Notes under the pieces: generated by a model | The model's database searches: none | Seen by the model: the letters and a program-made list of their open reading frames with translations, nothing else | Told to the model about the DNA's origin: nothing | Translations under genes and position numbers: made by a program | Part shown: piece by piece, positions 8,059-31,305 of the stretch | Numbering within the stretch: the first letter of the stretch is position 1 | How the letters are laid out: each line of letters begins with the position of its first letter | Assembly: GCA_016185435.1 (NCBI GenBank) | Contig: JACPNN010000004.1 | Span: 1 to 56,797 of the forward strand | Direction of reading: 5' to 3' | Source of the DNA: Candidatus Aenigmatarchaeota archaeon | GTDB lineage: Archaea; Aenigmatarchaeota; Aenigmatarchaeia; QMZP01 | DNA: 56,797 nt

Positions 8059-11000
8059 ATGCGGCCTCCCAGATTGCTGGTCATTGCTGCCTTTACCATG
8101 CTTATTCTTGCCAATGCAGCGCTTTCTGACTCCCCCAAACAGTCCATACTGCTTGTGGAGGACGCGCATTTCTATCCGGGCGGAAATGTTGAATACAAAA
8201 ATTCCGAGCTGGAAAAGTATTATGCATGGGCCATACAGGGGAATGGCTATTCCTTTGACAAATGCGTTGTCTCAGCAAATGACGGTGATGGCCCCGGATA
8301 CAGCACACAGACAAGCAGCTGCACCAAACTCATGAAGGATTATGACATAGTCATCTGGTTCACGGCATTCGATCCGGGCATCGGATACAGCTATCCGACC
8401 CTCACTGACACCGACATAAGCAACCTGCAGGCATATCTGAACAGCGGAGGGAAGCTCTTCCTGACAGGGCAGGACATAGGCTTTGACATAGGCAACAGCA
8501 AGCCAGATTTCTACCATGACTATCTCCATGCGACATATAAGACAGACGATTCCAACTCTTACTATGTCAAAGACGCTTCATCAGGACTAGACCCCATAGG
8601 CGATGGATTCACCATCGGAATCTATGATGACTATGGCATAGATTATCCAGATGTGATAGACAAAAAGGATTCATTCAGCTTTCGCGTATTCAAGTATTGC
8701 ACATCTATATGCTCCTCTAAATTTGCCGGCGTGAGAGCCAAAACAGCCACGCACAAGAATGTCTACTTCGGCTTCAACTTCGAGAGGATAACGGGAAGCC
8801 AGGACAACCAGACAAGAACCAGCCTGATGAGGCAGATACTTGGATATCTGGCCTCTCCGGATGCGAAAGGCGCCATGCTCTATCCCAATGTGACAAACAG
8901 CACCGCTGTGCTCAATGTCACATGCAACGATACACAAAGGTATTCTTATGTTACTGCGGCAGAGTATTTTGTTGATGCCATCGGCTCCTCCGGCTCCGGA
9001 AACAGCCTGGGCGCCAAGGACGGAACCTTCGACACTGCCACAGAGGTCGCGAATGCAACAATAAACACCTCCAGCATCTCTGAAGGCAGCCACACCATTG
9101 CAGTCCACTGCAAGGATGCTGACGGCTTCTGGGGGAAATTCGACAATGTGACGCTGACTGTAGACAGGACGGCTCCGGCTGCGCCTTTCATAACGATTGA
9201 GAATGATGGCCCGTACACGACAAAGGAGAAGCCCCTGCTCAACATAATCGACGCGAGCGGGGGGAGCAACACGCCCAACTACATGCGCTTCTCATGCGAC
9301 AATGCAAGCTGGACTCCATGGGTTTCATGGAACACGAGCCACACAGATTTCAATTTCACGTCAGCAGACTATGGATGCCAGAATGCTGACGGGACAAAGA
9401 CAGTCTTTGTGCAGGCGAGGGATACTGCAGGCAACCTGCAGGGGTTGACAAGGAAGGATGACACCAACATAACCCTTGACAGGCAGCCGCCGTACATCGC
9501 GTCCATATCGAAGGCTAACAATTCCTTCATCGCATCATCAACAAACCTTACCATTGTCCTGAACGACAGCCTTTCAGGGATTCCTGGCTCAGGCCACACA
9601 TTCGACAACGGCAACGGGACAAGGGCAAGTTTTTTAAGCGGCGCGGCCTTTTCTCCGGGATATGCGGGCGAAGGCAATCGCACCCTTAATTTGACCATCA
9701 TGGACAATGCAGGCAACCAGAATTCCACTGTCTATTTTTTCGCTGTCGACAATACAGCGCCTCAGATAGCCCTTACGGCCCCGGCAAACGGCTCATACAT
9801 AAATTTCTCAGGAAAGATAGTCATAGACATAACAGAGGGCTTTTCAGGCATTGCAGCCAGCTGGTTTGACAACGGCAACGGGACAAACACAAGCTTTAGC
9901 GATAATGTTTCATTCAATCCCGGATACAGCACTGAGGGCAGCAGAATCTTGAGGGTCTATGCGAATGACAGCGCAGGAAACCTCAATTCGACCGTTCTTG
10001 CATTCACGGCCGACAATTCATCGCCAGTTTTCAATTCAGTCTCGCCCGCAAATGCATCGAATATAACAGGCAGCACACCCATAACAGTCTTCTTTGCAGA
10101 CAGCATTTCTGCCGCAAGCGCTGTAGCCGACAACGGCAACGGGACAAATGTCAGCATCACGAGCAATGTTTCCTTTATCCCGGGCTTTACCGGGGAGGGG
10201 CTGAAAAACCTTACTGCATATCTGAATGACTCTGTGGGCAACACCAACTACACCAGGCTCTTCTATACTGCCGACTTGACGCCGCCGAACACCACAGACA
10301 ATTATTCCTCCAGCCAGTGGGCAACTGCCAATCAGCCTGTAGGGCTCACATGCACAGACAATGTTACGGCATGCAGCACTACGCTCTACTGCACCCACAG
10401 GAGCACTGAGCCGGAATGCACGCCTTCAGCTATAGGAGCAGTGGCAGCAGCAATCTGCAGCCAGAACGATGAATGCCAGATATATGTCAGGTACAGGAGC
10501 AATGACACGGTGGGCAATGCGGAGGCCACAAAGAACACCAGCCTGATCATGATAGACAGGAAAGGCCCTTCAATAGTTTTCATCACCCCTCTTGACGGAA
10601 GCAACAGATCAGGCGCAATAGACATAAGGGCCAACATAACCGACGGCGGGGCAGGCGTCATCAATGCCACTTACAGCATCCTCAATGCCAGCAATACGAG
10701 CCAGACAATCGCAAGCGGCAATTTGACATATCCCGCCTGGAACTCGACATTCAACAGCAACCAGTACAATACGGAAACGTTTATTCTCATGATAAACTCA
10801 ACGGACAATGTCAGCAATACCGCAAACAGGAACATAACCTTCATAGTCGATAACCAGAGGCCTTCTGCCATCATCCTGTTCCCGAGGGACAAAATAGTCA
10901 GAAGCAATTTCAGCCTGGACATGAGGGGCTCAGCTATATCCGGCAGGATACTGACTGAATGCAGCTACTACATATACAACTCCACTTCAACTGTCAATTA

Positions 11001-14000
11001 TACGGTAACGGGTGCCAGCTCTTCCGCATGCAGCTATACGAACACGATTGATATCCAGACACTTGCGGACGGCAATTACTCGCTCAACTTCACCGCCATA
11101 GACAACATCTCTCTGTCGTCAACAGACAGGGGATGGGTCTACATAGACAGGCAGAATCCGTCTGTTTCCATAACCAGCCCCGGCAATGCAAGCACGCAGA
11201 CGGGCACTATCAATGTTAGCTTTTCGGCTTCTGATTCTGTCAGGCTAAGCTCCTGCAGCTGGAGCCTCATCCAGTCAGGAACAACAGGCCCCTTCAACAT
11301 CAGCTGCACAGCAAACATAAGCTTCAGCACGCAACTCTGCACAGACACAAATAAATCGAATTGCACCATACAGCTGTCGGCGGCAGATGAAGCGGGCAAC
11401 AGCAATACCAGCAGTATATGGCTCAGCATAGACAACACAAGACCTTCTGTGTCAATCACTTCCCCATCGGCCAATAGCTGGCAGCCACATACATTCAATA
11501 TATCGTTCTCGGCCGTAGACACGAGCGGTTTGCAATGCATGTTCAGGATAGCGGGAAGCTCGGATTCGGGCTGGCTGACAATGCCATGCAGCCAGCCTTT
11601 CATTGCAAACATCTCCTACTGCCAGACAGAGGGGACGGCAAGATGCGGGATAAGCGTGCAGGCAAATGATTCTGTAGGCTTCTCAGGCACAGCAGACAGG
11701 AACTTTTCGATAGACATAACAAAGCCATATCTGACATCACTGAGCCCCGCAAACGGCAGCAGGATAACATCATCAGGCATGATAACGGCAGCATTCTCTG
11801 ACAGCATTTCAGGGCTTGCTGCAGTCCTTTTCGACAACGGCAACGGAACGAACATTAGCTTCTCAAGCGGCGCTGCATTCGGCCCCGGATTTGCAGGCAA
11901 TGGTTTGAGAAACATAACCATGTATGCAACTGATGTGGCAGGCAATACCAATTCAACTTACGCTGCCTATACGCTTGACAATACGCCTCCGTCATTGGGC
12001 AATCTTTCGCTTAATATAACTGATGCAGTTTTCAGCGACTACAGGGTTCACCCGTTCGAAAAAATCAAAATAAGGGCAAACATCTCAGATTCTTCTGGCA
12101 TAAGCTATGCCATAGTCGAGATAAACTATTCGGGCCAGAGGAGGAACTTCAGCATGCTCCAGGATGCTGATGTGGCAGGCAATTTTTCCCTGATCTTCCC
12201 CAATGCGAACAGCACGGGCAGATATGCCATAACAATGCTGTCCGCCAATGACACAGTCGGCAATATAGCGGGCCTTTCCGAACCGCAGATAAACAGGAGC
12301 TTCCTTGTCATCAACACCACGCTGGCGGCGACAATAAACAGCTCCAAGTCCATAGACTCGGCAGGCACAGGTTCTGTTCTGCTTGCCATTGACTTCAACA
12401 GGAGCATGGCCAACAGGAGCTTCTCTGTCTTCCAGCCGGCATCTTTTTCGAACATCAGCCAATACAGCTGCACCTCAGCATGCTCGCTCAGCATGTCGGA
12501 CAGCCAGCTGTCTGCAATCCCCCTGACTGCTGTCTCTGCCATCAACATCAGCTCAACTGTCAATGCTGCGGCACAGCCTCAGGACGCCAACTCAACATGG
12601 ACAGCGAGGGCGGGAGAAACAAATATCTCTGACTACATTGCAATACTGTCCCCCTTGCTCAACATAACCACTGCCTTATGCGACGGTTCCCAGACATGCG
12701 TAATCAACCAGAGCGTCTACTTCAATTTAAGCATAACCGTGAGGAATGAGGCCGGGAATGGCAGGTCAGGAAGAGCTTCGCTTGTCAATGTATCCTTTTC
12801 ATCAGAAGCTGGAGGCAATTACACCGTAATAAACGACATGCCCTCGAACAGCAGCAGAACTGCCTCCTGGAACATATCTGTTGGGAGTGCAGGCACCTAC
12901 AACTTCACTGTCATGGCCAGAGAAGGCTTTTCTGGAATGTCCAATGCCAGCGGGAGCAAAAATGTGACAATAATAGATGCGGAGCAGCCTATGATAACGC
13001 TTGCTGAGATATCGGCGAGCACAATCAACATAAACGAATCGGTGAACATCACGCTTTTCGCAACAGACAATGTCAATGTGACTGCAGCGTGGGTGATGGT
13101 CAATGACAGCTCCAACCTGACCAACATGAGTTTAGCCCTCTATTCGGGCAGCTATTCATCCGGAACATGGCTGCTGCTTTTCAACCAGACGCAGGAGAAA
13201 AGAAACTACACAATACTGGCTGAATATGCGAATGACAGCCGGGGCAACATCGGCTATCTCAACACGACTCTGCAGCTGGAGGTGAGGCAGCTGGATTTCA
13301 ACATATCCCTTTCTGGGCAGGCCACTACAGTAAATACAACGCTCACATTGCAGGCGAATATAACAGGAAATGCCAGCGCAATACAGAGCGTGCAGGCCTT
13401 GATTGCCAAGCCCGGCAATGTGACTGAGACCATAGACCTCCCGCGTGTGGCCGGCAGCAGCCTCCAGTATTACGGCGAATACAGAAACATTTCAAGGTCG
13501 GGCAACTACACTGTTTCTGCCGTCGCCACCATGAGATTCGTTGCAATAAGGAATTCCACTTTTTCTGTCCCCCTCGGCAACATAAGCGTTGAGCTTTCCG
13601 ATGGCAATCAGACACGTGTCGATATACCGGTTGGCCTGGCAGCAAACCTCAGCGTCCTGCTAACGCCCAGCAACGGGGACCTTCTGGGCATCCTGGCATA
13701 TGCCGCAGCTTCGGGGGTAATCAATCTCACAGAAAATCTAAAGGATGCGGGGAATGTGAGCTTCGAAGGCGTGAAACCGAGAAAGATCAGCTTTGCGGTC
13801 AACGGCACGGCCATAGGCCAGGCGTATGTCAATTTCACTGTCAACTCGAGCTATCATCAGGCTGCAAACAGGAGCATTCTCGTCTCTGTAACCTCACCTG
13901 ATATCCAGAAGCCGCAGATAAATTCTGTTTCGGCAGCGTATAGCATCCGGAACCTTTATGAGGCCAATGCCATATCAGTCAACGCCACTGACAATTCAGT

Positions 14001-16266
14001 GATCCAGGCAGTGATAATATCAGTCGCTCATCCCTCAGGAGCCAGGCAGAACTATTCGGCATCGCAGGTTTCCAATGGCCTTTATTCGCTGGATTTCTCA
14101 AATATCAATGAAACGGGGAACTTTTCCTTGAGCGCTTTTGCCGTTGACATATCCGGCAACATAAACTCCTCCTCTGGGCACAGCTTCAATGCTACAGACA
14201 ACTATACAGTCAATGTTACTCTGCCTTACACATCCTACAACAAGGGCGAAAATGTCAGCATAACAGTCGCTGTCAAAAATGCCAATAACGAGAATGTGAC
14301 AGGCTTCAACCTCAGCCTTACGCTGCAGAAATCTTCGGCAAATGTTTCTCTGTCCAACGGCTCTGCGCAAAGCTCTGCATTCTACAGAATTGAATTTTCC
14401 GACATGCCTGACTCGAGCAGCGGCAACAATGCAACTTATACGGCCTATGCGAATGTCAGCAGGAATGGCAATAGAGGCCTGGCGACAGCCGCATTTGAAG
14501 TTTACAAATCTCTTATAGCCCAGATAATCAGCCCTGCTTCAGGCGAGGTTGTCAGCACAAGCCAGCCGATGACTGTCAGGGTGAGGGTGCTGAACATCAG
14601 GCAAGAGCCTTCGACTGACGCATCCGTACTTGCTCAGTGCCAGACAGGAAAATGCAACAACCAGTTTGTCCTGCTCAGCAAAGAAAGTGAGGGAATATAT
14701 TCCAACAACCAGTCCCTCCAGCCGATAGATTTTGTGCAGGCCTTCGCCCTTACCGTCACAGCTAGCGATTCCTTCAGGAACTCTGCATCAGATGTCGTTG
14801 CTCCCTCAACTATGCAATCAAGCTCCTCGTCCGGCTCATCATCGGCGGTAGTAGGCGGGGGAGGTACTGCCGCTGGAGGGGCGGGAGGAAAAAATTTGAG
14901 CAAGGAGGAGGAGCCATGCAAGAGTGACAAAGATTGCGAAGGAGGTTTAGAATGCGATCTCAGCCTGTCTGTTTGCATAAAAATAAAGAAAGGTGAAGAG
15001 AAGATTGCGGGATTTGAGCTGCTGCTTGACCAGAATGTGTTAGAAATTCAGCAGGGGAAGGATGCTGTCATTAGCGGCAAAATAAGAAACACGGAGAACC
15101 AGCAGCTTGACGTGGAAATAGAGGTCAAAAGCGACTGCTGCAACTTCCTGCATGAGAAAGAATTGAAGATTCAGGCGATAAAAGGAACGGAAAAGGCAGT
15201 ACAGATAAATGTCCATGTGCCGCTAACAGATCAGGCAGGCCAGTATGTCGCGCTTCTAGCCGTGAAGAATAAGGGAATTAATGCTGAAAAGACAGGCTCA
15301 GTTTTCATAAGGGTGCTGTCCAACCGCCTTGTTGAGACACTGAGGAACAAATACCCAAAAGCCCTGCGAGAACTAAGAACAACGACTGAAGATCTTGAAA
15401 AAGTTGGCATAGATGTTGAAAACCTGAAAAGGAGAATTGGCAACATAGAGCTGGCCTTGAAAGAGGCAGAGAATGCCATATTCCTTGACGACATTCAGTC
15501 TCTGGAAAGAATATTGGGCGCGGCCGAAGATGAGTTCATCCTTGCCTCGCTGGAGAGCATCGGCTTGAGGTTCCTCAAGTTTGTCTACTCCAACCTGAAC
15601 TTGCTGGTGGCCATCATTGTTATCGTCTCGTTCAGCAGCTACTTTGCAATGACTTTCGCTATCCCTTATATGCGGCTCAGGAAAAATCTGCTTAACCTTA
15701 TGAAGGAAGAAAATGCCATCGTAACTAGCAGGAAAAGCGCAGAAGTGCAGTATTTCAAGAGGAAGATAGACGAGAAGACTTTCAGGGGCATAATGGTGAA
15801 GGAGCAGGACAGACTTCTTACGATAAGGGCCAAGACAGCAGAAGCCAGGCAGGAGATAGACAACCTTCTCGGGACAGCATTCAGCCTGAGGTCTTTGGCT
15901 GGGATGCAAAAACGCGCTGGACCAAAGAAGCAGGCAATGCCTGCCAAGGGCATTCAGACGTCAAAGTTATCAGGTTCCCAAACAAAACAAACCCAAATTC
16001 AGATAGCCCGGCAAAGTCTTTTTGGTTTAGGGAAGCTTTTCGCTTCCAGAGGCGTTTCAAAGGAGATGCCAAAGCAAACTGCGGGCATAAAGGGACGGCT
16101 TGAAGAAGTCGAGAAGGCCATTCATACAACTTATGGCGTCGAAAGGAACGAGCTGGAGCAGCAGTACAGGTTTGCCAAGGAGTTTGCGGGCAAAGGATTA
16201 GGGGTCATGGCTTCATACCACCTGGAGAGATGCGAGGAGATACTGAAGAGGGCAAAAAGGATGTGA
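8059..16266 (+). CDS. Giant membrane-anchored surface protein (2735 aa)
   Basis: A signal peptide (about 1-23) leads into a Rossmann-like domain (25-270, glutamine-amidotransferase-like fold; SILLVEDA, GGKLFLTGQDIG) of the kind found at the front of some surface proteins. Then come some 1900 residues of Ig/cadherin-like beta-sandwich repeats. Four repeats carry DNGNGT with F-x-PG(Y/F) downstream (starts near 516, 604, 691, 1259), and many end in D(N/R)(T/Q)xP. Asn-X-Ser/Thr sequons are extremely dense, suggesting heavy N-glycosylation. A Ser/Gly linker (2253-2279), a Cys cluster (2290-2313), another beta domain and a helical stalk precede a membrane helix (2514-2537). About 200 charged, helical residues then lie inside the cell. 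Its size and layout suit an S-layer-associated or adhesion protein with a cytoplasmic anchor. Binding partner unknown. Confidence 0.85.
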   Translation: MRPPRLLVIAAFTMLILANAALSDSPKQSILLVEDAHFYPGGNVEYKNSELEKYYAWAIQGNGYSFDKCVVSANDGDGPGYSTQTSSCTKLMKDYDIVIWFTAFDPGIGYSYPTLTDTDISNLQAYLNSGGKLFLTGQDIGFDIGNSKPDFYHDYLHATYKTDDSNSYYVKDASSGLDPIGDGFTIGIYDDYGIDYPDVIDKKDSFSFRVFKYCTSICSSKFAGVRAKTATHKNVYFGFNFERITGSQDNQTRTSLMRQILGYLASPDAKGAMLYPNVTNSTAVLNVTCNDTQRYSYVTAAEYFVDAIGSSGSGNSLGAKDGTFDTATEVANATINTSSISEGSHTIAVHCKDADGFWGKFDNVTLTVDRTAPAAPFITIENDGPYTTKEKPLLNIIDASGGSNTPNYMRFSCDNASWTPWVSWNTSHTDFNFTSADYGCQNADGTKTVFVQARDTAGNLQGLTRKDDTNITLDRQPPYIASISKANNSFIASSTNLTIVLNDSLSGIPGSGHTFDNGNGTRASFLSGAAFSPGYAGEGNRTLNLTIMDNAGNQNSTVYFFAVDNTAPQIALTAPANGSYINFSGKIVIDITEGFSGIAASWFDNGNGTNTSFSDNVSFNPGYSTEGSRILRVYANDSAGNLNSTVLAFTADNSSPVFNSVSPANASNITGSTPITVFFADSISAASAVADNGNGTNVSITSNVSFIPGFTGEGLKNLTAYLNDSVGNTNYTRLFYTADLTPPNTTDNYSSSQWATANQPVGLTCTDNVTACSTTLYCTHRSTEPECTPSAIGAVAAAICSQNDECQIYVRYRSNDTVGNAEATKNTSLIMIDRKGPSIVFITPLDGSNRSGAIDIRANITDGGAGVINATYSILNASNTSQTIASGNLTYPAWNSTFNSNQYNTETFILMINSTDNVSNTANRNITFIVDNQRPSAIILFPRDKIVRSNFSLDMRGSAISGRILTECSYYIYNSTSTVNYTVTGASSSACSYTNTIDIQTLADGNYSLNFTAIDNISLSSTDRGWVYIDRQNPSVSITSPGNASTQTGTINVSFSASDSVRLSSCSWSLIQSGTTGPFNISCTANISFSTQLCTDTNKSNCTIQLSAADEAGNSNTSSIWLSIDNTRPSVSITSPSANSWQPHTFNISFSAVDTSGLQCMFRIAGSSDSGWLTMPCSQPFIANISYCQTEGTARCGISVQANDSVGFSGTADRNFSIDITKPYLTSLSPANGSRITSSGMITAAFSDSISGLAAVLFDNGNGTNISFSSGAAFGPGFAGNGLRNITMYATDVAGNTNSTYAAYTLDNTPPSLGNLSLNITDAVFSDYRVHPFEKIKIRANISDSSGISYAIVEINYSGQRRNFSMLQDADVAGNFSLIFPNANSTGRYAITMLSANDTVGNIAGLSEPQINRSFLVINTTLAATINSSKSIDSAGTGSVLLAIDFNRSMANRSFSVFQPASFSNISQYSCTSACSLSMSDSQLSAIPLTAVSAINISSTVNAAAQPQDANSTWTARAGETNISDYIAILSPLLNITTALCDGSQTCVINQSVYFNLSITVRNEAGNGRSGRASLVNVSFSSEAGGNYTVINDMPSNSSRTASWNISVGSAGTYNFTVMAREGFSGMSNASGSKNVTIIDAEQPMITLAEISASTININESVNITLFATDNVNVTAAWVMVNDSSNLTNMSLALYSGSYSSGTWLLLFNQTQEKRNYTILAEYANDSRGNIGYLNTTLQLEVRQLDFNISLSGQATTVNTTLTLQANITGNASAIQSVQALIAKPGNVTETIDLPRVAGSSLQYYGEYRNISRSGNYTVSAVATMRFVAIRNSTFSVPLGNISVELSDGNQTRVDIPVGLAANLSVLLTPSNGDLLGILAYAAASGVINLTENLKDAGNVSFEGVKPRKISFAVNGTAIGQAYVNFTVNSSYHQAANRSILVSVTSPDIQKPQINSVSAAYSIRNLYEANAISVNATDNSVIQAVIISVAHPSGARQNYSASQVSNGLYSLDFSNINETGNFSLSAFAVDISGNINSSSGHSFNATDNYTVNVTLPYTSYNKGENVSITVAVKNANNENVTGFNLSLTLQKSSANVSLSNGSAQSSAFYRIEFSDMPDSSSGNNATYTAYANVSRNGNRGLATAAFEVYKSLIAQIISPASGEVVSTSQPMTVRVRVLNIRQEPSTDASVLAQCQTGKCNNQFVLLSKESEGIYSNNQSLQPIDFVQAFALTVTASDSFRNSASDVVAPSTMQSSSSSGSSSAVVGGGGTAAGGAGGKNLSKEEEPCKSDKDCEGGLECDLSLSVCIKIKKGEEKIAGFELLLDQNVLEIQQGKDAVISGKIRNTENQQLDVEIEVKSDCCNFLHEKELKIQAIKGTEKAVQINVHVPLTDQAGQYVALLAVKNKGINAEKTGSVFIRVLSNRLVETLRNKYPKALRELRTTTEDLEKVGIDVENLKRRIGNIELALKEAENAIFLDDIQSLERILGAAEDEFILASLESIGLRFLKFVYSNLNLLVAIIVIVSFSSYFAMTFAIPYMRLRKNLLNLMKEENAIVTSRKSAEVQYFKRKIDEKTFRGIMVKEQDRLLTIRAKTAEARQEIDNLLGTAFSLRSLAGMQKRAGPKKQAMPAKGIQTSKLSGSQTKQTQIQIARQSLFGLGKLFASRGVSKEMPKQTAGIKGRLEEVEKAIHTTYGVERNELEQQYRFAKEFAGKGLGVMASYHLERCEEILKRAKRM

Positions 16267-23050: not shown

Positions 23051-23485
23051 TTACTTTGATATTTTGTATCCGAATTCTTGCATCTTAATGATATCTGAGT
23101 CTGAAACCAGAAGATATAATGTATATCCTTCCGGACAGCTGCAAGCACGACAAACTATCTCATGTGTCTGTTTTGATTTGATATCGAATATGGTAATTTT
23201 CTGTTTCTTGTAATAATCCTTGATTATTTCGATTTCTGATGGCTCGAGTTCTGGTGTCTTGGAACTTTTTGGATATGAATAAAAATCCATATTGTTGGAC
23301 TTGAGCCAATCAATTTCCCAAGGGTTTCCCAAACACTGGACTGGATCTGTTTCCATCCAGATTCTGCCGGCTTGTCTGGACAAGAGTACTGGATTTATTG
23401 ACTGGAAAAACATAAAACTTGCTGATAGAAGCGCAAGTAGAAATACAATAACGGACCAATAAAATATTTTTTTGGGCTTCACCAT
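23051..23485 (-). CDS. Hypothetical single-pass membrane protein
   Basis: From ATG 23485 the product has about 144 residues, with a hydrophobic helix (about 8-27) right after a Lys-rich start. The soluble part contains a C-R-A-C-S-C-PEGY cluster near the C-terminus, which could form a disulfide or metal site. A GTG at 23536 would add 17 residues. It ends just past the enolase stop and begins 65 bp after the WWDYG gene on the same strand, so the two may be cotranscribed. No family recognised. Base composition is AT-richer than the neighbours. Confidence 0.5.
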   Translation of the reverse strand: MVKPKKIFYWSVIVFLLALLSASFMFFQSINPVLLSRQAGRIWMETDPVQCLGNPWEIDWLKSNNMDFYSYPKSSKTPELEPSEIEIIKDYYKKQKITIFDIKSKQTHEIVCRACSCPEGYTLYLLVSDSDIIKMQEFGYKISK

Positions 23486-23549
23486 AAATTTGATTATATC
23501 TGCTCCTATAAAATTCTTCTGAAAATTGTCTGACACTTGAAATCAACAG

Positions 23550-24356
23550 TCATTTGACTCTGTATATCGCAGCGCTCCTGTTGTCGGTAAATGCCAGCTC
23601 AAAGCCGTCTATCTTGGAGAGGTTCAGGATCTGGAATATCAGGCTTGTGGAGTTGATCGCTATCGGCCCTATGCCGGTGTTGACTATCTCATGTGGCGTG
23701 TTTGTCACGTTGTACATGACCCACGTCCTGGATACATCGAAAGCGCCGACAAGCACGTATCTGGAGCCGTATTTCTGCATAATCTGCCTAGCCTTTGGAT
23801 AATCGCTTGTCGAAAAGATTGCTGCAAGATCTGATATCCTGCTGTCCTCCTCCAGATCTCCTGCTGCCACGGAATCCCATTTGCCTGTGCGGGAGTATTC
23901 CGCAACGCTGAATAGTATGCTCTTGGATGGCGCATAGGCCAGGGCTTTCCTGTCTGAATATCCCCTTATGGTGTGGCCATAGTCCCACCAGCTTGTCACC
24001 ACATCTCCAGGCAGGGTATTGTTCCTGAGCCACTCCAGTGTCTCGATAAGCTCAGGGAAGAATATGTACCTGTACTTCCTGCCGTCTGATGTGTACTCTA
24101 TATCTACCGAATAAGTGTTGTTCTCAACAATCCTTATCAGCCTCGCGCCGTTTTCAAGAGCGAGGCTGTCATTTGAGAGATTGCCTGCCTGGACTGGCTG
24201 CGGCGGCTTTTCAGCCGACTGGGGAGCAGTATTGCCGGGAATGTTCAAGATATATATCACGATTGCAGCGCTCACGGCCAGGCCTATAAAAACTGCTATC
24301 AGGATGTCGGAATGCTTTGACAATTCAGATGCTATCCCCTTTCCGTCTGATGTCAT
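23550..24356 (-). CDS. Free-standing WWDYG domain of STT3/AglB type
   Basis: This 268-residue protein has one membrane helix (about 18-40) and an outer domain with the WWDYG motif at 123-127, in a TSWWDYGHTIRGYSDRKAL context. That motif is the acceptor-sequon-binding signature of oligosaccharyltransferase STT3/AglB. It is followed by the usual ARQIMQKYGSRYVLV region of the C-terminal globular domain. The 11-13 membrane helices that carry the catalytic aspartates of a full AglB (about 600-1000 residues) are absent. The start is backed by a TATA box (24377-24387). It cannot be a complete glycosyltransferase alone, so a sequon-binding helper is inferred. Confidence 0.75.
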   Translation of the reverse strand: MTSDGKGIASELSKHSDILIAVFIGLAVSAAIVIYILNIPGNTAPQSAEKPPQPVQAGNLSNDSLALENGARLIRIVENNTYSVDIEYTSDGRKYRYIFFPELIETLEWLRNNTLPGDVVTSWWDYGHTIRGYSDRKALAYAPSKSILFSVAEYSRTGKWDSVAAGDLEEDSRISDLAAIFSTSDYPKARQIMQKYGSRYVLVGAFDVSRTWVMYNVTNTPHEIVNTGIGPIAINSTSLIFQILNLSKIDGFELAFTDNRSAAIYRVK

Positions 24357-24376: not shown

Positions 24377-24387
24377 GTATTTAAGCT
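24377..24387 (-). promoter_or_regulatory. TATA box of the WWDYG protein gene
   Basis: On the minus strand GCTTAAATACC lies 21-31 bp before ATG 24356. Confidence 0.45.
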
Positions 24388-24444: not shown

Positions 24445-24726
24445 ATGGCGAAAGAGCTGCGGTCTGCAATGGGGACGGTATATGTGCATGGGGAATACGA
24501 TATCGGGTTAAGGACCGGACTCGAATCATCCCCTTATAATGTCGACCTCTTTCTGCTCAATGATGGCAATTGGGCAGATGCAACGCTCGTGAGGACCCTT
24601 GAATCGTGCGAAGACGAAATGACAGCAAGGGAGATGCACTACAGATATTCGAACAATTATGACGGGTGCAGAAAGATTGCCGAAGAGTTTTTGTTAAGAA
24701 ATTACGGATTATCGAAAAAAAGATAG
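24445..24726 (+). CDS. Hypothetical protein (93 aa)
   Basis: This small, soluble, acidic protein with Cys-Glu-Asp-Glu and a Lys/Arg tail resembles no family I know. ATG 24445 follows a short AT-poor leader. The stop is 8 bp from the end of convergent lysS. Codon use agrees with the surrounding genes, so I keep it as likely real. Confidence 0.5.
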   Translation: MAKELRSAMGTVYVHGEYDIGLRTGLESSPYNVDLFLLNDGNWADATLVRTLESCEDEMTAREMHYRYSNNYDGCRKIAEEFLLRNYGLSKKR

Positions 24727-29465: not shown

Positions 29466-29780
29466 TTAGACAGTTGGGGGGGCGGTGGAGGTGGTGCAGT
29501 CGAAAGAGCTGGCAGACCTGCCCAACTCGTCTGCGCAGCTTCTTGTGATTATCTGGTTGTTTTCCTTCGCAAAGGGCTTGGGGATCTCCCAGTCAATAGG
29601 CATCGTGTTCAGGCTGGCGCAGGTTGCCCTTGCATTGAGCTCGCAGTTCTTACGGAATTCAGCCAGCACGCCCACATTCCCTGCGCTCTTGGCGAATATT
29701 GACAGCACGACTAAAGCGACAACCAGTATGACAAGGGCTGCGACAACAATCCACATCGTCTGGCTGAGGCCTTTGACCAT
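29466..29780 (-). CDS. Pilin-like protein 1 with class III signal peptide
   Basis: The 104-residue product starts MVKGLSQTMW, followed by about 22 hydrophobic residues. This is a class III (type IV pilin-like) signal, expected to be cut after Gly4 by an archaeal prepilin peptidase. The mature part has paired cysteines and the shared motif MPIDWEIPK. It is one of five adjacent paralogues with the same layout. No assembly ATPase or peptidase gene is nearby. Confidence 0.75.
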   Translation of the reverse strand: MVKGLSQTMWIVVAALVILVVALVVLSIFAKSAGNVGVLAEFRKNCELNARATCASLNTMPIDWEIPKPFAKENNQIITRSCADELGRSASSFDCTTSTAPPTV

Positions 29781-29819
29781 ATATAATATTATATGTGACA
29801 GGGGGTAAATAAGTGTTTT

Positions 29820-30113
29820 CTATCCGCTCTCCGGAGGTATTGCATAACCATAAGCGGCGCATGATATGTTTTCTGTCTTGGGAAATGTGACATTGTAGCA
29901 GCTGACGGGCTTATCCGTTACTGTTTCTGGAATGGGTATCAGCCAGTCGATTGGCAAAACTTTCAAGGATTGGCAGCTTAATCTTGCTTTCAGTTCGCAG
30001 TTTTGTATAAATTTGTTCTTATCTCTGTCAATAGGTGTGGGAATTGGTGTGAGTAGGGCAAATGTCAACAAAAGAACAGCCAGAACTATAAGAAAGAGTA
30101 TTATGATCCACAT
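29820..30113 (-). CDS. Pilin-like protein 2, start uncertain
   Basis: The hydrophobic helix WIIILFLIVLAVLLLTFALL and the mature motif LPIDWLIPIPE with paired cysteines match its neighbours. The charged leader is unusual. The frame before the ATG at 30111-30113 reads SSGKKA, without a start codon, until another ATG far inside the upstream gene. Either translation begins at that ATG and gives almost no n-region, or it uses a nonstandard or distant start. A TATA-like GCTATAAAC lies near 30165-30173. Confidence 0.55.
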   Translation of the reverse strand: MWIIILFLIVLAVLLLTFALLTPIPTPIDRDKNKFIQNCELKARLSCQSLKVLPIDWLIPIPETVTDKPVSCYNVTFPKTENISCAAYGYAIPPESG

Positions 30114-30172
30114 GGCCTTTTTGCCTGAACTGTTCCTATTTCGTCCTGCTCTGGATTTATGGATGTTTATAG

Positions 30173-30454
30173 CTATCCGCTCCTGTTGCCGATGCCTGTC
30201 TCGCACTTGCATACGCCCGGCTTCATGCATCCCGGGAACTGGGAATAAGGCCTGGAGGAGCCTTCGACGCAGACGGACTGCCAGACCCTGCATGCGTCAG
30301 AGCATGTGTCGCCGCTTGCAATCTGCTGGCTCAGGTTTGCGACGGGCCTGAAGACGCTTGTAAAGCTTCCCATAAGGAGAAGGGCTATGACAAGGGCTAC
30401 AAGAACAGCGGCAATAATCCAGACTGTGTTGGAGAGGCCTTTTTCAGAAGGCAT
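30173..30454 (-). CDS. Pilin-like protein 3 with class III signal peptide
   Basis: This 93-residue paralogue begins MPSEKGLSNTVW followed by a 20-residue hydrophobic helix, with cleavage expected after the Gly in EKG. The mature region differs from its neighbours: it has six cysteines (C-S-D-A-C and CMKPGVCKC types) and lacks the LPIDW motif. I chose ATG 30454, 29 codons inside a longer open frame, because it puts the charged KG just before the helix. Confidence 0.65.
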   Translation of the reverse strand: MPSEKGLSNTVWIIAAVLVALVIALLLMGSFTSVFRPVANLSQQIASGDTCSDACRVWQSVCVEGSSRPYSQFPGCMKPGVCKCETGIGNRSG

Positions 30455-30464
30455 AAGGGCTCTT

Positions 30465-30776
30465 TTATGGATTCTGCGTCGGAGGCACAGGGAAGCCATA
30501 GGCGCTGCAGTCAGGCCTGGCGGGAGGGGGTGCAACTGCATTATAGCAGCTGATAAGGGTTTGGGAGCCTGATACGGCCTTTGGAATCTGCCAGTCTATG
30601 GGCAGGACTCCCAGGGACGAGCAGCTTGCAGTGGCCGAAAGCCTGCAGTTCTGAACGAATTGCACGGGGATGTTCCCTATTGATTTGCTGAAAATTGTAA
30701 GGATGACCAGCGCGACAATCAGGATGACGAGGGATGCGACAACAAGCCACATTGTGTTGGAAATGCCTTTTGCCAT
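30465..30776 (-). CDS. Pilin-like protein 4 with class III signal peptide
   Basis: This 103-residue paralogue begins MAKGISNTMW, has a 22-residue hydrophobic helix, and then shows C-x(6)-C with LPIDWQIPKAV. The close similarity to protein 1, also in the mature part, implies a local duplication. Its stop lies 10 bp before the next start, so the cluster is probably one transcript. Confidence 0.72.
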   Translation of the reverse strand: MAKGISNTMWLVVASLVILIVALVILTIFSKSIGNIPVQFVQNCRLSATASCSSLGVLPIDWQIPKAVSGSQTLISCYNAVAPPPARPDCSAYGFPVPPTQNP

Positions 30777-30866
30777 ATTTTAATAATTGTGCGCTACCCT
30801 CTTATATAGGTTCGAAAGAGCCTGACTATCCGCACTATATACGGCAGGCCGGCAAGCAGAAGGCAG

Positions 30867-31136
30867 TCATTTGGCCGTGAAAATTGAGCAGTCCTTTATG
30901 CCTGTGGCCTCAAGGCATGTCCTGTCGCCTGAATCAGTCCTGATTCTGGCCGAATCCCATCCCACAGGGAGGGAACCTGACTGGCATGTCACCGCAGCGC
31001 TTGTCCTGCAGCTTTCTGCGAAGCGGCTTATGCTGACTGCCACATTCGTGAACATGGTGAGGACTATGATTGCCACGACAAGGACTACCAGCGCAGTCAC
31101 AATGAGCCACATTGTTTCCGAGAGGCCATGAGCCAT
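30867..31136 (-). CDS. Pilin-like protein 5 with class III signal peptide
   Basis: This is the first gene of the cluster in transcription order (89 residues). It begins MAHGLSETMW, followed by a hydrophobic helix, two cysteine pairs and LPVGWDSARI, a diverged version of LPIDW. I chose ATG 31136, 20 codons inside a longer frame, so that HG directly precedes the helix. Confidence 0.68.
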   Translation of the reverse strand: MAHGLSETMWLIVTALVVLVVAIIVLTMFTNVAVSISRFAESCRTSAAVTCQSGSLPVGWDSARIRTDSGDRTCLEATGIKDCSIFTAK

Positions 31137-31305
31137 ATTACAATTTTGCACTTCAGGGGTTAAAAATAGGGGTGTCAGATTTTGCATTGCAGCCAAGCTG
31201 TTCTTGTAGCTTGATTGAATGCCAGAAGCATATTATCCGTATATCCGACAACTATTCACTACTGCAAGGATACACCTGTATATTCAAATGATATTCAATA
31301 GATAA

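Follow-up and report, generated by a model that had tools for sequence, protein, structure and literature searches.

What does an archaeal protein do that carries the WWDYG signature of STT3/AglB oligosaccharyltransferases (OSTs) and has only one membrane helix? Studies of sequon recognition usually treat it as impossible to separate from catalysis. The gene considered here lies within the window, by which we mean the whole stretch of 56,797 nucleotides that was analyzed.

An OST-type domain on a single helix

The gene, its parts and its immediate surroundings are as follows.

23550..24356 (-): coding sequence of the stand-alone WWDYG-domain protein, 268 aa (open reading frame; Pfam STT3-PglB_core, E 4e-5; family alignment A2)
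24243..24338 (-): one N-terminal membrane helix, residues 7-38 (hydropathy and AlphaFold model)
24063..24167 (-): family-specific N-terminal beta region, residues 64-98 (AlphaFold strands 64-66, 72-78, 81-90 and 93-98)
23553..24068 (-): OST CC domain, residues 97-268 (structural match to 3vu0 chain C, Z 17.6)
23976..23990 (-): WWDYG motif, residues 123-127, the Ser/Thr(+2)-pocket residues (exact in 23/27 family rows)
23925..23933 (-): APS, residues 142-144, at the donor-side DGGK/DNxT position of real AglBs (motif table)
23715..23738 (-): DK-like motif, D207-xx-R210-xxx-M214 (sequence and family alignment)
24378..24384 (-): TATA-like TTAAATA, 22-28 bp 5' of the ATG (sequence)
23051..23536 (-): next gene downstream, a 161-aa single-helix secreted protein, 13 bp away (open reading frame)

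The first-pass annotation had placed the STT3/AglB signature in a 268-residue, one-helix protein, and this description stands: the reading frame is exact, the Pfam STT3-PglB_core match scores 24.6 bits against a cut-off of 23, and phmmer searches with the protein match STT3A, PglB and AglB chains (best E 1.9e-4). PF02516 has no match in the protein, which with its one helix is without the multi-helix GT-C domain (DxD, TIXE). An AlphaFold model built from an 18-row family alignment reached a pLDDT of 87.8 (about 88), and its residues 97-268 align with the C-terminal domain of AfAglB-S2 (3vu0 chain C) at a Z score of 17.6, with an rmsd of 3.1 over 142 residues. Most STT3/PglB/AglB entries, with yeast, human and bacterial OSTs among the matches, score Z of about 13-16, vs about 4 or less for unrelated folds. 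Because the CC fold is modeled with high confidence and stands so far above that background, the WWDYG match goes well beyond a five-letter coincidence. In the predicted structure, the presence of a complete OST CC unit and the absence of the catalytic membrane part are confirmed. The beta region, partly conserved among relatives in the family alignment, sits where AglB has its last membrane helix, and in place of the N-terminal helix relatives have either a lipoprotein signal (lipobox-like) or one helix.

An upstream frameshift joining the gene to a membrane domain had not been seen in the initial reading, and none is present. The upstream neighbor (24445-24726, +) is divergently oriented, and the start codon is closely preceded by a TATA-like box, so no membrane domain has been lost by frameshift. 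The TTAAATA sequence is consistent with transcription of the gene on its own, possibly leaderless. Pairing with the 161-aa downstream gene was considered and rejected, as the four other genomes of the class that encode homologs of the latter all lack the WWDYG gene.

The genome (1.35 Mb, 95% complete) also encodes a complete AglB. This protein of 775 aa (G000:C15), on another contig, is the only match to PF02516 when hits up to E 10 are counted; it carries WWDFG, DGG, TVAE and a C domain of its own, and adjoins a GlcNAc-1-phosphate-transferase-like gene (identified by eye). The first-pass annotation had proposed looking for both a full AglB and a helices-only partner, and the same search revealed no second STT3-type membrane gene and no helices-only partner. 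The window protein as query does not find its own genome's AglB even at E 10 and is therefore no recent AglB duplicate.

The suggestion that surface proteins here are very rich in sequons is borne out within the window, where reading frames with one or two hydrophobic segments contain 219 sequons vs 90 expected by shuffling (2.4x), and those without hydrophobic segments contain 15 vs 20 (0.76x). The WWDYG protein itself has 8, vs 2.4 expected. Elsewhere in the window, a secreted protein of 2735 aa (8059-16266, +) holds 143 N-glycosylation sequons vs about 49 expected from composition, and four consecutive small single-helix proteins (29466-31196, -), alike at their N-termini, resemble class III signal-peptide (pilin-like) proteins.

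A dispersed family with a conserved acceptor motif

As a single query the protein found five relatives in its own class, and a first single-sequence scan of wider genome contigs found nothing. A later profile scan recovered relatives in about 29 archaeal genomes, mostly as lipoproteins or single-helix proteins, from Aenigmatarchaeota, Woesearchaeota, Nanoarchaeota, Pacearchaeota, Undinarchaeales, Nanohalarchaeota, Thaumarchaeota, Bathyarchaeota and Thermoplasmatota. Stand-alone relatives are about 210-260 aa long, many of them starting with a lipoprotein signal, and other lineages have fused forms. The family was found in 6/156 genomes of its own phylum and in 9/371, 4/293 and 4/398 genomes of three others, counts that are not independent of the seed because the first matches went into the profile; likewise, the A2 profile matches the window protein at E 1.1e-74, with that protein part of the seed. 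No relative was found among the viral contigs searched for a viral origin.

A tree computed on the CC core puts all of the 27 stand-alone rows on one side of a branch supported at 100/99, opposite 34 outside rows (25 AglBs and 9 split AglBs). Ratios of dN/dS in three close pairs (0.25, 0.15 and 0.17) indicate that the stand-alone family pairs are under purifying selection. The window protein fits this family in its single anchor, its CC domain, the PS that follows WWDYG and its place in the clade. On these sequence comparisons, it belongs to an archaeal family that is old and patchily distributed, and is no one-off oddity. A literature search, mostly without subscription journals, returned no description of the stand-alone family, which is apparently undescribed so far.

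The pocket for Ser/Thr at +2 in genuine OSTs is built from WWDYG together with the DK/MI motif (PMC3703281; PMC8342417), while DGGK, or DNxT in TACK archaea, presumably contacts the glycan donor (PMC8342417). The comparison of pocket residues proposed by the first-pass annotation separates these two sides. WWDYG is exact in 23 of 27 stand-alone rows (the other four read WWDNG, WWDLG or WWDQS), although the aligned relatives are only 22-31% identical to the window protein, and it stays exact while most other alignment columns vary. At the donor-side position, 18-21 residues past the first Trp of WWDYG, D[GN] occurs in none of the 27 stand-alone rows vs 29 of the 34 AglB and split-AglB rows; 24 of the 27 have PS instead, within YAPS in the window protein. 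Thus the acceptor side is conserved and the donor side is not, as a non-catalytic sequon receptor would require. The DK motif, canonically DxxKxxx[M/I] (PMC3703281), is more variable: its Lys is Arg (R210) in the window protein and missing in several relatives. These counts leave out L138 and L139 (genomes G395 and G399), divergent profile matches without a recognizable WWD motif in the scan that are possibly degenerate family members.

Most neighborhoods of the WWDYG gene are not conserved, with fused forms of Thermoplasmatota as the informative exception. In three genomes of that lineage (four genes; L091, L101/L144 and L143), a HAAS-5TM protein ends in a C-terminal, extracytoplasmic WWD domain, and its gene adjoins a PadR gene (HAAS E 3e-7, 8.6e-9 and 1.2e-7; PadR E 2.7e-24, 2e-22 and 9.3e-24 at the three loci). 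HAAS-PadR has been proposed as a signaling dyad in which HAAS relays the signals of fused sensor domains (PMC11237479). In a woesearchaeal gene (L088:7893-9608, +), the WWDYG domain is fused to a C-terminal part of 338 aa. By eye, its NEP and TES motifs suggest a clan GH-A glycosidase, a candidate assignment set aside because Pfam gave no match at E 0.1 and the PDB offered nothing better than E 0.59.

A two-gene form of AglB itself, consisting of a membrane half and a WWD half, is frequent in several families of the same class (L037:6242-8663, +; L038:7709-9986, -; L039:6554-8891, -; L040:6660-9493, +). The membrane half (397-470 aa, with DxD and SIAE/SVAE motifs) directly precedes a C half of 319-363 aa with YWDPG or WWDQG, except that the C half of L040 has 466 aa and extra helices; the two halves overlap at three of the four loci and are nearly adjacent at the other. 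The sampled split C halves form one clade (support 97/91), and our literature search, with the same restricted journal access, retrieved no report of split AglB. Since relatives within the class divide AglB in this way, the CC domain can be a separate polypeptide in trans.

Possible roles of the stand-alone domain

The account we favor, about which we are evenly divided between belief and doubt, is that the stand-alone proteins are non-catalytic, surface-anchored CC domains that bind Ser/Thr-containing, sequon-like segments for sensing or capture. The window protein transfers no glycan, because it has neither the catalytic membrane domain nor the donor-side motif; peptide binding, sensing or capture, and any link to AglB are what we infer beyond this. 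A lipid or one helix would tether the CC domain to the outer side of the archaeal membrane, and the domain's WWDYG/DK-type pocket would most likely hold Ser/Thr-containing, sequon-like stretches of secreted proteins. In the Thermoplasmatota branch it may serve as the head for peptide (sequon or envelope-state) sensing, and the anchored protein of this genome, next to a normal AglB, probably captures under-glycosylated surface proteins or monitors them. Sensing is the best-supported use in Thermoplasmatota because a HAAS-PadR protein there carries the WWD domain as its outer head, and the fusions point to sensing at least as much as to helping AglB. A more specific version, which we hold only tentatively, is a non-enzymatic archaeal sequon receptor that reads extracellular unglycosylated N-x-S/T and, through HAAS-PadR, converts this in some lineages into gene regulation, as a sensor of glycosylation or envelope stress. 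The favored account also draws on the presence of AglB in the carrier genomes and on the sequon-rich surface proteins. Against it stand the replaced or missing DK lysine, the four rows with an altered WWDYG, gene neighborhoods that mostly contain no glycosylation genes, and a window protein with neither HAAS nor a neighboring PadR. To recognize sequons, AglB requires in addition two features of its membrane part, the TIXE loop and the Asn site (PMC8342417), so the isolated CC domain may bind weakly or unspecifically, or bind something else.

Two other roles are conceivable, each rather unlikely in our estimation. The protein could dock on the single AglB as an accessory subunit and present acceptor segments to it, like the non-catalytic subunits of eukaryotic OST. 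It shares the membrane face and the pocket with AglB, and AglB, full or split, is present in 20 of 20 carrier genomes tested; this coexistence lends weak support, because 123 of 151 genomes of the class have AglB anyway. In one Methanomassiliicoccales genome, about 3.4 kb separate a HAAS-WWDYG gene from an exceptionally long AglB, a 2392-codon open frame (G161:C1:1376389-1381721), a proximity that fits the subunit role. However, no linkage to AglB is conserved elsewhere, the carriers' AglBs are of very different types, full-length and split, and the HAAS fusions imply a signaling partner. With a similarly low probability, the domain has been repurposed, its fold and WWDYG retained for structural reasons or to bind a different peptide or a small ligand that has nothing to do with sequons. 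The lost donor motif, the new and nearly invariant PS, the weak DK conservation and the fast divergence would all suit such a change, but WWDYG remains exact while most columns change, and these are the residues of the Ser/Thr pocket in OST.

The remaining readings are far less probable. A pocket without catalysis would in principle compete with AglB, and the first-pass annotation had raised the idea of a decoy; we judge it very unlikely that the protein masks sequons to shield chosen proteins from glycosylation, since it has 8 sequons of its own and the surface proteins are enriched in sequons, not depleted. The split AglBs of the class make one ask whether the gene is the C half of a two-gene AglB with its membrane half elsewhere in the genome. 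That would be still more surprising: the sole PF02516 match at E values up to 10 in the genome, which is 95% complete, already has a C domain, and split C halves group elsewhere in the tree and have retained DG at the donor-side position. Last comes the view that this is an AglB cut short or frameshifted, a pseudogene or an artifact of assembly, to which we attach next to no credence. The recognized part is indeed the C-terminal domain only, but the upstream gene is divergent, the same architecture recurs in some 29 genomes, the proteins make up a single clade that includes none of the sampled AglBs and have dN/dS well below 1, and the genome's own AglB escapes a search with the window protein. 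The divergent neighbor, the separate clade and the dN/dS of 0.15-0.25 led us to reject frameshift or truncation.

A conserved family that has the acceptor pocket and is without the donor and catalytic parts would be a natural experiment on what a CC domain binds by itself. Such binding is directly testable because the domain is small and mostly extracytoplasmic. Together with the HAAS-PadR fusions, the family is a candidate, open to testing, for the way in which archaea might keep track of surface-layer glycosylation.

Comparison with known systems

Several known systems share parts of this architecture. Tryptophan C-mannosyltransferase DPY19 (PDB 7zlg) has a related C-terminal fold (Z 12.6), but is a full membrane enzyme with another sequon specificity. 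The HAAS-PadR systems resemble the Thermoplasmatota relatives, in which HAAS-5TM-WWD lies beside PadR; an OST-type domain is not among the HAAS fusions named in the passages of PMC11237479 that were consulted. The window protein differs from these systems in having neither a HAAS domain nor a PadR gene next door. The C halves of split AglBs (L037-L039) are likewise separate reading frames of 319-363 aa that combine a membrane segment with a WWD-type domain, but they come directly after a membrane-half gene and overlap it, keep DG, read YWDPG or WWDQG and fall in another clade, whereas the window gene has no adjacent membrane-half gene, its upstream neighbor being divergent and the only PF02516 gene lying on another contig. 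The closest likeness in structure is to the CC unit of AglB/STT3/PglB, for example Archaeoglobus fulgidus AglB-S2 (3vu0), with which the window protein shares the whole CC fold and WWDYG; on the equivalent helix it has the DK-like motif with Arg for Lys. Unlike these enzymes, it is without the GT-C membrane domain with DxD and TIXE, and the stand-alone family has xxPS in place of DGGK/DNxT, an extra N-terminal beta region, and a lipid or single-helix anchor.
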